A stretch of DNA of 64,000 nt from Anaerococcus sp. Marseille-Q7828 (GTDB lineage Bacteria > Bacillota > Clostridia > Tissierellales > Peptoniphilaceae), in contig NZ_OX458331.1 in NCBI RefSeq assembly GCF_949769285.1, forward strand, positions 62,001-126,000. The letters are read 5' to 3'. The translations under genes and the position numbers were made by a program. The notes below the pieces were generated by a model that did not search any database, had not been told where the DNA came from, and was given only the letters and a program-made list of their open reading frames with translations. This document shows, in pieces, positions 3,002 through 30,507 of the stretch. Position 1 is the first letter of the stretch, and each line of letters begins with the position of its first letter.

Positions 3002-3075
3002 TGGAGGCGCCACCCAGATTTGAACTGGGGGTAAAGGTGTTGCAGACCTCTGCCTTACCACTTGGCTATGGCGCC
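3002..3075 (-). tRNA. tRNA-Cys (GCA)
   Basis: 74-nt cloverleaf on the minus strand. The acceptor stem GGCGCCA pairs with TGGCGCC, followed by T and an encoded CCA at 3002-3004. Anticodon loop CTGCAAC gives anticodon GCA (Cys). T-loop region reads CAGTTCAAATCTGG. It lies downstream of tRNA-Gly. Confidence 0.95.
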
Positions 3076-3132
3076 AAAATGAGCCCGTCCGGCTAAAGAA
3101 GGACCCTCCATGGAATGGTCGTGCATGGCACG
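3076..3132 (-). repeat. diverged, inverted copy of the GC-rich tRNA-linked repeat
   Basis: Spacer between tRNA-Gly and tRNA-Cys. Read on the minus strand it contains TCCATGGAGGGT and AGCC-GGACG-GGCT, matching TCCATGGAGGGT and ACGCC-GGACA-GGCGT of the first unit at 3301-3364 on the plus strand. A short CGTGC-CAT-GCACG hairpin is also present. It is one copy of the same structured family in opposite orientation. No promoter hexamers are visible in it. Confidence 0.65.
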
Positions 3133-3154
3133 AAAAAAGCCCTTTTGGGCTTTT
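3133..3154 (-). terminator. hairpin terminator after tRNA-Gly
   Basis: Minus strand: AAAAGCCC-AAAA-GGGCTTTTTT, an 8-bp stem with a T-run, starting 6 nt after the CCA end of tRNA-Gly. Its symmetric A/T flanks could let it work in both directions. Confidence 0.8.
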
Positions 3155-3160
3155 CTTATA

Positions 3161-3235
3161 TGGAGCGGATGACGAGATTCGAACTCGCGACCCTCGCCTT
3201 GGCAAGGCGATGCTCTACCACTGAGCCACATCCGC
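3161..3235 (-). tRNA. tRNA-Gly (GCC)
   Basis: 75-nt cloverleaf on the minus strand. Acceptor GCGGATG pairs with CATCCGC, then T and an encoded CCA at 3161-3163. Anticodon arm CGCCT-TGCCAAG-GCG gives anticodon GCC (Gly). T-arm contains GAGTTCGAATCTC. Promoter hexamers lie upstream at 3256-3284. Confidence 0.95.
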
Positions 3236-3255
3236 ATGAATTAGGTTACTAATAT

Positions 3256-3284
3256 ATTATACCATAATATGTTTTGTTTTTCAA
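3256..3284 (-). promoter_or_regulatory. sigma-A-type promoter of tRNA-Gly
   Basis: Minus strand TTGAAA (3279-3284), 17-bp spacer, TATAAT (3256-3261), about 20 nt before the tRNA-Gly 5' end. Confidence 0.8.
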
Positions 3285-3300
3285 ATATTTTTTTGTTCTA

Positions 3301-3592
3301 TTCGCTTCGCTCCTGCGGCCACTCCATGGAGGGTGCTCTCAGGACGCCGGACAGGCGTGCTTTTGGTCCTCGGCTTCGCCTGCGGTTGTTCCGCGTCTAT
3401 AGGACGCGGGTGCTCCCGGGAAGCCGCACGGGCTTGTTATGGTCCTCGGCTTCGCCTGCGGTAGTTTCGCGTCTGTAGGACGCGAGGCCTCCCAGGAAGC
3501 CGGCCAGGCTTGCTTTGGTCCTCGACTTCGCCTGCGGTTATTCCGTGCCTGTTGGGCACGGGCCCTCTCAGGACGCCGGGCAGGCGTGCTGT
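3301..3592 (+). repeat. GC-rich array of ~76-bp structured repeats between tRNA-Gly and tRNA-Phe
   Basis: Four units: 3301-3364 (partial, diverged), 3365-3440, 3441-3516 and 3517-3592. Full units are 76-77 bp and begin GGTCCTCGGCTTCGCCTGCGG. Each carries two hairpins. Hairpin A: CCGCGTC/GACGCGG (3391-3409), TCGCGTC/GACGCGA (3467-3485), CCGTGCC/GGCACGG (3543-3561). Hairpin B: ACGCC/GGCGT (3344-3358), AAGCC/GGCTT (3421-3435), AAGCC/GGCTT (3497-3511), ACGCC/GGCGT (3573-3587). The differences between copies are compensatory. Base composition is far more GC-rich than all surrounding DNA. Several short open frames cross it but they follow the repeat and look spurious. Confidence 0.9.
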
Positions 3593-3668
<76 letters not shown>

Positions 3669-3689
3669 TTATTTACAATTACTTTACCT

Positions 3690-3718
3690 ATTTTAAACTT
3701 AATTTTAATATTTGTCAA
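3690..3718 (-). promoter_or_regulatory. promoter of tRNA-Phe
   Basis: Minus strand TTGACA (3713-3718), 17-bp spacer, TAAAAT (3690-3695), about 21 nt before the tRNA 5' end. Transcription from here would continue into the repeat array. Confidence 0.8.
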
Positions 3719-3810
3719 ATATTTATTTCTTTTCTATGCATATTGTCTTTTATTAAATTTTGCTATAAACTATAATATAGTTATCAAAATTATTTTAGAA
3801 AGGAATTTTT

Positions 3811-4439
3811 ATGTTTAATTTCATAATGTCGAGTTTGAAGACATTTTAGATATTGATGATCTTACTATTAATAGCAATGAAATTACTTGCATTATCGGGC
3901 CTAGTGGGTCTGGCAAGTCTACTTTATTAAGACTTATCAATAAGCTTATTTCTCCTACCAAGGGATATATTTCTCTTGATGGTGAGGATATTGCAAGTAT
4001 TGATTCTACTACATATCGCAGGCGTGTACCTATGCTTTCTCAGAATCCTGTGACTTTTCCTGGCACTGTTAGAGATAATCTATTGATGGGAAGGAAGTTT
4101 CAAGAAAAAGATTTGCTTTCTGATGAGATTTTAAATAAAGCTTTAGAGTCTGTAAAGCTTTATAAATCACTAGGAGAAGATATTGATAATCTTTCTGGTG
4201 GCGAGGCCCAAAGGCTTGCTATAGCCAGACTTATGCTTTGCGATTCTGATATTTATCTCCTCGATGAGCCTTCATCTGCCCTTGATGATTTGACTGAAGA
4301 TTTCGTTATTAAGACCATGGTAGATATGGCTAGAGAAAAGAACAAAACTATTATCTACATTACTCATTCCAATGCGATGGCAGATAAGTATTCTGACAGA
4401 GTAATTAAGATTGTAGATGGGAGAATATGTAATGAATGA
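3811..4439 (+). pseudogene. fetA: FetA/YbbL-like ABC ATPase with a frameshift at its start
   Basis: ATP-binding subunit of a FetAB (YbbLM) type exporter, linked in Escherichia coli to iron efflux. AAGGAA and ATG at 3811 are correctly spaced, but the ATG frame stops after ten codons. The frame that continues (open from 3819) encodes FEDILDIDDL, Walker A GPSGSGKST, Q-loop LSQNP, signature LSGGE and Walker B IYLLDEPSSALDD, about 205 residues, normal for the family. One A missing after TTTAATTTC near 3822 would restore MFNFNNVEFED. There is no in-frame ATG, GTG or TTG before the Walker A; the first is ATG 4032, which would lose the P-loop. Either a real frameshift or a sequencing error. Its 3' end overlaps fetB by 8 nt. 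Confidence 0.8.
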
Positions 4440-5220
4440 ATCAGTTATGAATATTTCAAATAGCCAGCTTATGCTAACCTATCTTTTTGCTCTAATTGCT
4501 ATGCTAATCACATCATTTAATGGCATCAATCGCAACAAGGACATAGTCGTTGGCGCTGTCAGGATGACCGTTCAACTCTTTATAGCTGGTTTCATCCTTG
4601 TTTACATATTTGACAGTGCATCTTTCATCCTTTCTGCACTGATGATTGCTGTTATGGAGTTTTTTGCAATTTTTAATATTGTTACCAATAAGAAAGGCAA
4701 ATTAAATAGCGTCCTTAAAAAGACTCTAATTCTCGCCCAAGTTATTGGAACTGTTTTTACCCTAGCATTTTTCCTTATAATAGTTGTAAGGCCAGATCCA
4801 ATCTACAATCCCCAATATCTAATACCTCTTGGAGGTATGATTATTGGTAATTCTATGACTGGTATAAACCTTGCCCTAAACCAAATGCTAAAGTCCATTG
4901 AAAACAATAGATCTACCATAGAAGGATCATTGATGCTTGGTGCAAGCCCTAGAATGGCTATGAACAAGATTATCCAAAACGCCTTTGATACAGCCATCAC
5001 GCCAACCCTCAATTCTATCAAAAATATGGGGATTATCTCCCTACCTGGTATGATGACAGGTCAAATCCTTGGAGGGGTTTCCCCACTTATAGCTATCAGA
5101 TACCAAATAGCGATTATGACAGCCATAATGAGTTCAGTTGCCATCTGTGTCTTCATATTTTTGCACTTAGGATACAAAAATTTCTTCAATGACCAAAAAC
5201 AATTAGTAAAAGCCCAATAA
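4432..5220 (+). CDS. fetB: FetB/YbbM family ABC permease (UPF0014)
   Basis: 262-residue integral membrane permease, partner of the upstream ATPase. Family members form FetAB-type exporters; metal (iron) efflux is known for E. coli, substrate here unproven. Six to seven hydrophobic segments are visible beginning LTYLFALIAMLITSF. The conserved stretch NRSTIEGSLMLGASPRMA (near residues 161-178) and the following GIISLPGMMTGQILGG are diagnostic of the family. ATG 4432 is preferred to ATG 4417 because GGGAG lies at the right distance; it overlaps the ATPase gene by 8 nt. A strong terminator follows at 5219. Confidence 0.9.
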   Translation: MNESVMNISNSQLMLTYLFALIAMLITSFNGINRNKDIVVGAVRMTVQLFIAGFILVYIFDSASFILSALMIAVMEFFAIFNIVTNKKGKLNSVLKKTLILAQVIGTVFTLAFFLIIVVRPDPIYNPQYLIPLGGMIIGNSMTGINLALNQMLKSIENNRSTIEGSLMLGASPRMAMNKIIQNAFDTAITPTLNSIKNMGIISLPGMMTGQILGGVSPLIAIRYQIAIMTAIMSSVAICVFIFLHLGYKNFFNDQKQLVKAQ

Positions 5221-29508: not shown

Positions 29509-30507
29509 TTATTTTAAATCTCCAGTATTTGTAATTTCACCTGAGAAGATTTGTTTTAGTTGTTCAACTGTCAAATCTTCAACCTTGCTTTCAGTATTAA
29601 CAACTACTGCTATACCGTCTGTTGCGATAACTTCTGGTGTAAGTTGTTCTTTTTCTTCATCTTTAAGTTCTCTTGAAGCCATAGCAATGTCTGCTGATTC
29701 GTCTATTACTGCTTCAATACCTGCAGATGATCCTGTAGATTGTAGGTCGATTTGTACATCTGGGTTAAGTTCTTTGTAAGCTTCGATGAATTTTTCCATT
29801 AATGGAGTAACTGATGTAGAACCAGCAACTGTGATGCTACCACTTAATCCTTCAGCTCCTTCATAAGCTTTTGTATCGCTTAGAGGTACATAACCTTCTT
29901 CTTTAACAATTTCTTGAGCTTCTGTTGATAGGCAGTAAGCTAAGAAGTCTTTTGAAATGTCGTTTAGTTTGTCTTCTTTGTAAGCAAGGTTAAATGGTCT
30001 AGAAATTTTGTATGAACCATTTACGATGTTTTCTTCTGTTGCTTCAACACCTTCAACTTTTACAGCTTTAACTGTATCGTTTAGTGAACCAAGAGAAATG
30101 TATCCGATAGCATTTGGATCTTGTGCTACTGATGTCATTACACCGTTTGTAGAGTTTTGAACTACAGCATCAACTGTTGTTTTATCTTCTTTAGAACCGT
30201 CTGCTGCTTCTTCTTCAAGACCAACAAGTTCGATGAAAGCTCCTCTTGTACCTGAACCTTCTTCTCTTGAGATTACTGAGAAGTCATAGTCTGCTTGATC
30301 AGCAGTATCTTTTGTTTCTTCTTCTTTTTTGTCTTCTTCAGCTGGTTCTTCTGTTTTTGTTTCTTCAGTTTTATCAGCTTCTTTATTTTCTTCTGTTGTT
30401 GCAGCTGGCTCTTCTGTTTTGTTTTCAGCTGCGTTGTTACCACATGCAGACAATACTAATCCTAGGGATAAAGCTGCTGCAATTATTTTTGAATTTTTAA
30501 GTGTCAT
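29509..30507 (-). CDS. pstS: phosphate-binding lipoprotein PstS
   Basis: 332-residue lipoprotein that captures phosphate outside the membrane. Signal peptide with lipobox LSAC (about C22), a Glu/Lys/Thr-rich linker (residues ~25-70), then the binding domain with SREEGSGTRGAFIELVG and the second-lobe AGSTSVTPLMEKFIEAYKE, both of which supply phosphate ligands in PstS. First gene of the operon; AAGGAG lies before ATG 30507 and a Pho box lies upstream. The family's usual lobe order appears permuted, with the SREEGSG segment first and GSTSV second, which is seen in some Firmicutes. Confidence 0.9.
   Translation of the reverse strand: MTLKNSKIIAAALSLGLVLSACGNNAAENKTEEPAATTEENKEADKTEETKTEEPAEEDKKEEETKDTADQADYDFSVISREEGSGTRGAFIELVGLEEEAADGSKEDKTTVDAVVQNSTNGVMTSVAQDPNAIGYISLGSLNDTVKAVKVEGVEATEENIVNGSYKISRPFNLAYKEDKLNDISKDFLAYCLSTEAQEIVKEEGYVPLSDTKAYEGAEGLSGSITVAGSTSVTPLMEKFIEAYKELNPDVQIDLQSTGSSAGIEAVIDESADIAMASRELKDEEKEQLTPEVIATDGIAVVVNTESKVEDLTVEQLKQIFSGEITNTGDLK

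Follow-up and report, generated by a model that had tools for sequence, protein, structure and literature searches.

A short repeat family of Anaerococcus with a covarying, pseudoknot-capable fold, arrayed downstream of a tRNA-Phe gene and possibly mobile

A tandem array beside tRNA-Phe

The DNA analysed here, which we call the window, is a stretch of 64,000 nucleotides from Anaerococcus sp. Marseille-Q7828 (contig NZ_OX458331.1, positions 62,001 to 126,000), whose genome measures 1.95 Mb. At window positions 3291-3589 of the minus strand, bounded by tRNA-Phe and the likely promoter of tRNA-Gly, it carries a tandem array in which three complete units of 76 bp are joined by a fourth that is shorter and hybrid. 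According to ARAGORN the array starts 3 nt past the CCA of tRNA-Phe, i.e. downstream in the tRNA sense, and an earlier note made from the sequence alone was right in placing it directly at the CCA end, in the position of a trailer. Tandem Repeats Finder reported a repeat at 3331-3585 with a period of 76, 3.3 copies and 81% matches. The earlier note had described units of 76-77 bp with two hairpins each; the hairpins are real, but only three units are complete, the fourth being different, and a third hairpin (P4) and a pseudoknot had been missed. The array had also been called far richer in GC than its surroundings, and the values agree with this: GC is 64.4% at 3290-3592, compared with 34.4% in the whole window and with 29.7% (2401-2975) and 31.5% (3669-4440) in the flanks. 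Together with the spacer to tRNA-Gly (3236-3592) the array has a fold that beats dinucleotide shuffles, with z values of -3.55 on the minus and -3.09 on the plus strand.

Read in the tRNA sense, a complete unit consists of a first hairpin (P1), a pseudoknot, a further hairpin (P3), a linker of the AAATA type and a CCGCA-P4-GAGGAC element. P1 is of the AAGCC/GGCTT type with a 5-nt loop, whose last four bases (NNCC) pair with a GGNN sequence about 5-7 nt past P1, giving an H-type pseudoknot; the length of the P4 stem differs among copies. The covarying fold is read on the minus strand, which is the strand of tRNA-Phe. In the following list type a is the full unit, while type b has a short second hairpin (CCAY-GRA-RTGG) followed by (Y)CGCA-P4-GAG; R1 and R2 are two models of the unit, and columns are those of A3, an alignment of 30 rows.

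3593..3668, minus strand: tRNA-Phe (GAA), with the encoded CCA ending at 3593 (ARAGORN and Rfam RF00005)
3514..3589, minus strand: unit 1, complete, type a (P1, pseudoknot, P3 and P4); R2 match G000:C1:65514-65589, E 3.1e-16
3573..3587, minus strand: P1 hairpin of unit 1, ACGCC/GGCGT with the 5-nt loop TGCCC (columns 3-17; hairpin B of the earlier note)
3562..3581, minus strand: pseudoknot helix of unit 1, loop GCCC (3578-3581) with GGGC (3562-3565) (columns 9-12 with 25-28)
3543..3561, minus strand: P3 hairpin of unit 1, CCGTGCC/GGCACGG (columns 29-47; hairpin A of the earlier note)
3520..3537, minus strand: CCGCA-P4-GAGG hairpin of unit 1 with a GAA loop (columns 53-76)
3438..3513, minus strand: unit 2, complete, pseudoknot GGCC/GGCC; R2 match 65438-65513
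3362..3437, minus strand: unit 3, complete, pseudoknot GTGC/GCAC; R2 match 65362-65437
3291..3360, minus strand: unit 4, hybrid, with the type-b second hairpin CCAT-GGA-GTGG; R1 match 65291-65360, E 1.2e-10
3256..3284, minus strand: likely tRNA-Gly promoter (TTGAAA, 17 bp, TATAAT), just past the array; 11 of 12 consensus positions in a promoter scan
3161..3235, minus strand: tRNA-Gly (GCC) (ARAGORN)
3079..3135, plus strand: type-b element with pseudoknot GTCC/GGAC, read directly; weak R2 match L001:1300-1356, E 0.043
3002..3075, minus strand: tRNA-Cys (GCA) (ARAGORN)

The pseudoknot of unit 4 is broken, its P1 loop GTCC standing opposite GCAC with no exact complement found; with a loop of the GTCC type and a partner of the GCAC type, this unit looks like a recombinant. 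The type-b element at 3079..3135, on the strand opposite to tRNA-Cys and just past its 5' end, has counterparts at the same place in two other Anaerococcus genomes, G044 and G021 (G and L numbers are our handles for genomes and loci), where the sequence of the tRNA-Gly promoter is also similar. In a search with Rfam (4227 models) of the whole window, and of 3050-3680 permissively, the gathering score was reached by tRNA alone; the permissive search gave five sub-threshold matches to unrelated families. The repeat finder also reported a degenerate 15-bp tandem repeat of 3.9 copies at 30308-30366 of the window.

Conservation of the fold

Covariation was counted in A4, an alignment of 58 rows made of matches to R2. 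Both-sided change occurs in 20 of 24 pairs, a number equalled by 0 of 500 shuffles, and the claim that the stem changes are compensatory is borne out with many copies aligned. Altogether 199 cells of A4 show a both-sided change; shuffles gave a mean of 63.4, and sliding the partners gave 14-38. P3 is paired in 93.3% of cells and the P4 hairpin in 87.0% (58 rows); it should be noted that A4 was fitted to P1, P3 and P4, so that their counts are biased towards structure, while the pseudoknot lies outside the model. The pseudoknot helix is paired in 97.4% of the cells of A4 and 98.3% of those of A3, and all four of its pairs are altered on both sides somewhere among the 58 aligned units. The stem sequences quoted in the earlier note for hairpin A are present, and the A-T to C-G switch that it saw in hairpin B is real, since the P1 column pair 4:16 is AU in 38 rows, CG in 13, GC in 2 and something else in 5 (n=58).

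The pseudoknot was first noticed by eye in a few units and then tested on 44 places found with R1, a model that contains no pseudoknot helix (47 matches minus repeated places). An exact complement of the four loop bases was present within the next 20 nt in 36 of these 44 places, in seven different sequences, and loops swapped among units gave a mean of 11.9 and a maximum of 26 complements over 10,000 shuffles; the test is not wholly independent, since R1 was built from nine units of the window's own genome which are themselves among the 44. In four of the eight places lacking an exact complement P1 is altered or mis-anchored. From the aligned sequences, the conclusion is supported that an interleaved, pseudoknot-capable fold has been kept across many sequence variants.

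Unit types and the minimal form

The family is modular: a pseudoknot of about 24 nt occurs alone or with two hairpins, and units stand singly or head-to-tail. The minimal unit is the pseudoknot alone, an interleaved palindrome of about 24 nt (AAGCC-Y-NNCC-GGCTT-nnnn-GA-GGNN type), found solitary or as direct repeats of 23-24 nt. Unit lengths or spacings elsewhere are about 24, 52-66 and 70-80 nt; a length of 76 is not constant in the family, and we take its identity with the length of the tRNA, which had already been suspected of being fortuitous, as coincidence. A tandem array of another period is seen at G041:C1:471250-471376, where three minimal patterns follow each other at a spacing of 52 bp.

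Minimal units were searched for with the pattern GCCYGTSCGGC, 4-10 nt, GSAC, which also matches inside longer units. Among the places listed for a stricter form of this pattern, counted by eye, 15 have a GTGC loop, followed by GCAC in 14 and by GGAC in one; the other listed places have a GTCC loop and then GGAC. Some units are combined with other sequences: a further family (of the GCCCGTACGAAAACTCGC...TTTTCGGGGTAAATATGCC type) is fused 5' of the units in L042, L056, L051, L128 and L144, where it replaces P1, and in the units of L004 and L037 the P3 loop holds an insert resembling the GGATTCGC...CTCATCTC type described below.

Distribution in the order

Homologous units were found with R1 and R2 both elsewhere in the same genome and in the genus, the latter as the reading of the earlier note required. 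The set searched comprised 249 genomes of the order, 31 of Anaerococcus and 218 others. R2 has matches in 21 of the 31 Anaerococcus genomes, 121 in total and from 0 to 22 per genome, so that a full-model match is absent from ten; in the 218 other genomes (91 further genera), under stricter filters and with 19 candidates scored per genome, it has none. The minimal pattern matches in 25 of the 31 Anaerococcus genomes, with 228 matches (4 and 8 units in G042 and G016), and read backwards it has no match in the 31. Its stricter form is found in 23 of the 31 and in one of the 218 others, as a single match in G125. All 24 named loci listed for the type-b pattern are from Anaerococcus, in a search with one genome per species from which records of the window's own genome may have been left out. 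Within the order, these searches restrict the dispersed family to Anaerococcus. No match to the array was found in phage and plasmid collections. Ten viral contigs (L258-L267) match the minimal pattern, possibly by chance.

Placement at gene ends

Sequence context was available for 117 of the 121 R2 matches. In 28 of them the unit starts 0-4 nt past the 3' end of a tRNA on the same strand (Glu 10, Phe 8, Leu 4, Arg-CCG 3, Asn 1, Arg-TCT 1, Met 1). With some 50 tRNA genes in 2 Mb, random scattering of the units would by a rough estimate leave clearly less than one of the 117 at such a distance from a tRNA; many sites are orthologous between species, and the 28 are therefore not 28 independent events. 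Six others lie on the strand opposite to tRNA-Arg(CCT), start at most 5 nt from its 5' end and may all come from one old insertion. Twelve further matches follow or overlap another match within 30 nt. A 3' end no more than 8 nt away from a tRNA is seen in only one of the 117.

Since units also occur at rRNA genes and stop codons, the placement is not limited to tRNAs. In rRNA operons they lie before 16S and in the 16S-23S, 23S-5S and 5S-tRNA spacers, starting 3-4 nt past 5S in both loci of that kind that were scanned:

L150, L154 and L076 (1160-1230): units before 16S
L032 and L155: units in the 16S-23S spacer
L163 and L219: units in the 23S-5S spacer

A few units start 0-4 nt past a stop codon, among them one that follows what we take, from the ending of its protein, to be groEL; placement of this kind is not explained by insertion targeted to structure. 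Concerning the sequence past the units, the supposition that they are mostly followed by A-rich DNA was not borne out, runs of at least five A being present past the ends of 24 of 117.

Other repeats share these surroundings. In L113 the spacer after tRNA-Glu contains another hairpin-rich repeat family, which begins with TGACCTATCACC or TGACCTAACCC and often ends in GCCGAC; it starts 2-4 nt past the tRNA CCA, the same kind of site as that of the pseudoknot units, and similar copies are seen in L114, L101, L107, L123 and L170. The tRNA-Glu to tRNA-Val spacer holds a degenerate tRNA-Glu-like copy broken by a structured insert of the GGATTCGC...CTCATCTC type in L103, L104, L106, L121 and L125, with similar cases in L111 and L112.

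Filled and empty sites

The site between tRNA-Phe and tRNA-Gly was read in 18 of 30 fetched loci, the remainder being other copies of tRNA-Phe; in five of the 18 (L172-L176) there is no tRNA-Phe at that site. The window's own genome has three complete units and the hybrid there. In G044, with a flank 95% identical, one type-b unit and a partial P1 are followed by another repeat family, and in G021, with a flank 89% identical, that other family stands alone. Type-b units are found at the site in G004, G006 and G019, and spacers of 6 to 103 nt with no recognisable unit in G008, G012, G022, G023, G024, G045 and G046. Two spacers of the large tRNA cluster also differ among close relatives: between tRNA-Tyr and tRNA-Gly there is one unit in the window's own genome and two in G044, while between tRNA-Phe and tRNA-Trp there is one in G044 and G021 and two in the window's own genome. 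In both spacers the extra unit lies between the CCA and the unit common to the close relative, and in these two cases it looks as if the array had grown next to the tRNA.

Two minimal units interrupt other sequences. In G016 one of them breaks the gene of an IS DDE transposase, named from its uninterrupted 519-aa relative in G011; the G016 stretch is 22 nt longer than its relatives in G020 and G011, which have no unit there. In G041 a minimal unit lies inside another repeat family, from which it is absent in G021. In both cases agreement with the empty site sets in again at the GGNN that ends the unit, and on the 5' side a few target bases differ. Filled and empty orthologous sites, as looked for in a transposable element, are thus both present. 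No target-site duplication was visible by eye in the filled and empty sites compared; some classes of transposable elements make none.

RNA or DNA as the form that is kept

A selected RNA fold is expected to tolerate G.U better than A.C. Over 19 core pairs in the 58 rows, 1,038 of 1,080 pairs are Watson-Crick, 12 are G.T, 13 A.C and 17 others; this count omits three pairs of P4 as well as the end pairs of P1 and P3, and with all 24 pairs A.C amounts to 46 and G.T to 15. For comparison, 125 distinct tRNAs of these loci have, in their acceptor and T stems, 1,372 Watson-Crick, 112 G.T, 13 A.C and 3 other pairs out of 1,500. The tRNA stems show an excess of G.T over A.C whereas the units do not (Fisher p 9e-6), and since G.T and A.C are equally rare in the units, RNA is not singled out as the selected form. 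The counts hint that the fold is kept as DNA, or that the mismatches are mostly neutral decay of dead copies; the equality of G.T and A.C could also arise if a few active variants had produced the copies and these had then decayed neutrally.

Some elements seem to have been inherited. Those that follow tRNA-Glu appear common to several species, with the pairing kept by compensatory change: in G011, G020, G015 and G012 they have compensatory differences at four pairs, with two G.T and no A.C; in addition two rows have G.A at one pair, the pair that closes a loop varies, and P3 is shortened in one row. These compensatory changes argue against pure decay, and elements that are inherited with their pairs kept would suit selection at the level of the host.

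Interpretation

We favour the view, with a probability of somewhat under 60%, that the array has accumulated from copies of a short structured repeat of Anaerococcus which is mobile but non-autonomous and propagates as a folded structure. Units would insert as folded nucleic acid, probably DNA; an enzyme would recognise the fold, the ends of tRNA and rRNA genes would be preferred or tolerated targets, and the array itself would have grown by insertion next to the tRNA. Transcription of the array as part of the tRNA-Phe trailer is likely but, on this reading, incidental. In a more specific form, which we propose only tentatively and consider rather doubtful, the palindrome of about 24 nt would itself be transposable, its 3' boundary being set by the pairing of GGNN with its own loop, and would be inserted as folded DNA at tRNA and rRNA 3' ends by an enzyme of Anaerococcus; at this length it would, to our knowledge, be among the smallest transposable units.

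The main rival reading is a role in RNA processing, by a cis-acting RNA element whose pseudoknot, placed in a trailer, would block exonucleases or position an endonuclease and so shape the 3' maturation or stability of tRNA and rRNA. The start of 28 of 117 units 0-4 nt past a CCA speaks for it, as do the units in front of 16S and in the spacers of rRNA operons, and the element apparently shared by several species after tRNA-Glu with its compensatory changes; we nevertheless hold it to be unlikely. Its sites are without a unit in many congeners and ten of 31 genomes have no full-model match, units lie inside other repeats and inside an IS gene, and G.T is not favoured over A.C. Two observations weaken the suggestion of the earlier note that the array is a dedicated trailer for tRNA processing: units also follow stop codons, lie in rRNA operons or face the 5' end of a tRNA in antisense, and related species have no unit, or other elements, at the site of the array. 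The compact covarying pseudoknot, its conserved CCGCA...GAGGAC flanks and the tandem arrays downstream of a tRNA gene would be in keeping with a self-cleaving ribozyme or with a small RNA processed from tRNA trailers. This is improbable, however, as no Rfam family except tRNA reaches its gathering score in the array region, the conserved 3' half is missing from the minimal form of 24 nt, and again G.T is not favoured.

A part for the units in transcription termination or attenuation, as signals in their own right or as pieces of such signals, seems slightly less probable still, although the units place GC-rich hairpins directly downstream of genes and one of them contributes to such a structure: between tRNA-Phe and tRNA-Trp of G013 (L048, 1568-1587) a terminator-like hairpin followed by a T-run has the unit end GGACCC as one of its arms, and the same spacer of G015 looks alike. 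A run of at least five T lies within 40 nt of the 3' end in 11 of 117 matches but is missing in 106, a scan of the array on the tRNA strand gave no terminator-like site, which tells against the multi-hairpin terminator proposed earlier, and in relatives the site between tRNA-Phe and tRNA-Gly can be empty. Tandem H-type pseudoknots of about 24-25 nt also resemble the ToxI core as described in the available part of PMC8860590, and the array could on that account be the antitoxin RNA of a type III toxin-antitoxin system. We regard this as very improbable: Pfam and PADLOC found no type III toxin family among eight ORFs beside two arrays, which belong to transporter, ATPase and other housekeeping families with some weak cross-matches to defence ATPases; the array is followed by tRNA-Gly and tRNA-Cys and not by a toxin gene; and the repeats are dispersed over many sites.

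The observation that started this work is thus confirmed and its interpretation partly supported. Short bacterial repeats are usually described as simple palindromes. We consider the Anaerococcus units a form of the known small structured bacterial repeats, set apart by an unusual pseudoknot core and a puzzling rule of placement, and assign them to no named family; no earlier description of them was found among the titles and abstract openings listed, a coverage outside which most subscription journals lie. If the units move, as in the reading that we favour, they point to an undescribed insertion system by which gene ends or folded nucleic acid are read; otherwise they would be an unrecognised structured element of the tRNA and rRNA transcripts of Anaerococcus, a genus with human isolates among its members. 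A unit as short as the minimal one lends itself to direct testing.

Comparison with known systems

At the ends of IS200/IS605 elements a guide sequence pairs with the tetranucleotide of the cleavage site. In the Anaerococcus unit an internal sequence pairs with a tetranucleotide at the unit's own 3' end, which may be an analogous arrangement; the guide would, however, lie in a hairpin loop, and no transposase or other enzyme was linked to the units when the IS200-type Y1 transposase was compared over the 31 genomes. No fixed target tetranucleotide was seen by eye at the insertion sites compared, and the internal pairing covaries. Minimal-pattern counts correlate weakly with Y1 counts over the 31 genomes (rho 0.36, p 0.046); for full-model counts there is no correlation (rho 0.23, p 0.21). 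The Y1 (RAYT) transposase as a strict partner was rejected, since of the 25 genomes in which the minimal pattern occurs 6 have no PF01797 match.

REP elements are palindromic repeats of 20-40 bp, according to the part of PMC3733652 available. Among the possibilities raised in the earlier note a REP-like family fits best in kind. Like REP elements, the units are short, palindromic and clustered; the usual REP partner, the Y1 transposase, is not a strict one here. The difference from REP and BIME elements, which are mobilised by RAYT, is that the Anaerococcus palindrome is interleaved and not simple and that the arrays are head-to-tail; a GTAG/CGTC tag is not visible by eye at the foot of P1, the letters CGTC lying inside the commonest loop variant.

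Correia and CIR elements, small non-autonomous repeats with RNA structures in the account of PMC2229807 as far as available, are MITEs, from which the Anaerococcus units differ in having no terminal inverted repeats at their ends and no target duplication seen. ToxI antitoxin repeats are tandem pseudoknots of a similar core size that accompany a toxin gene (PMC8860590, in part), while the units described here are dispersed, carry extra hairpins and have no toxin gene beside the two arrays inspected.

The nearest in style are the BOX elements of Streptococcus pneumoniae, which the available part of PMC3049150 presents as short, modular and interspersed, with a variable number of internal modules, a predicted fold, a low rate of transposition and transcription in places; the word pseudoknot does not appear in that paper. 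Modular units in variable number at interspersed sites are found in Anaerococcus as well. Compared with BOX, the minimal unit is only about 24 nt long, many copies stand at the ends of tRNA and rRNA genes, and the host belongs to another genus.
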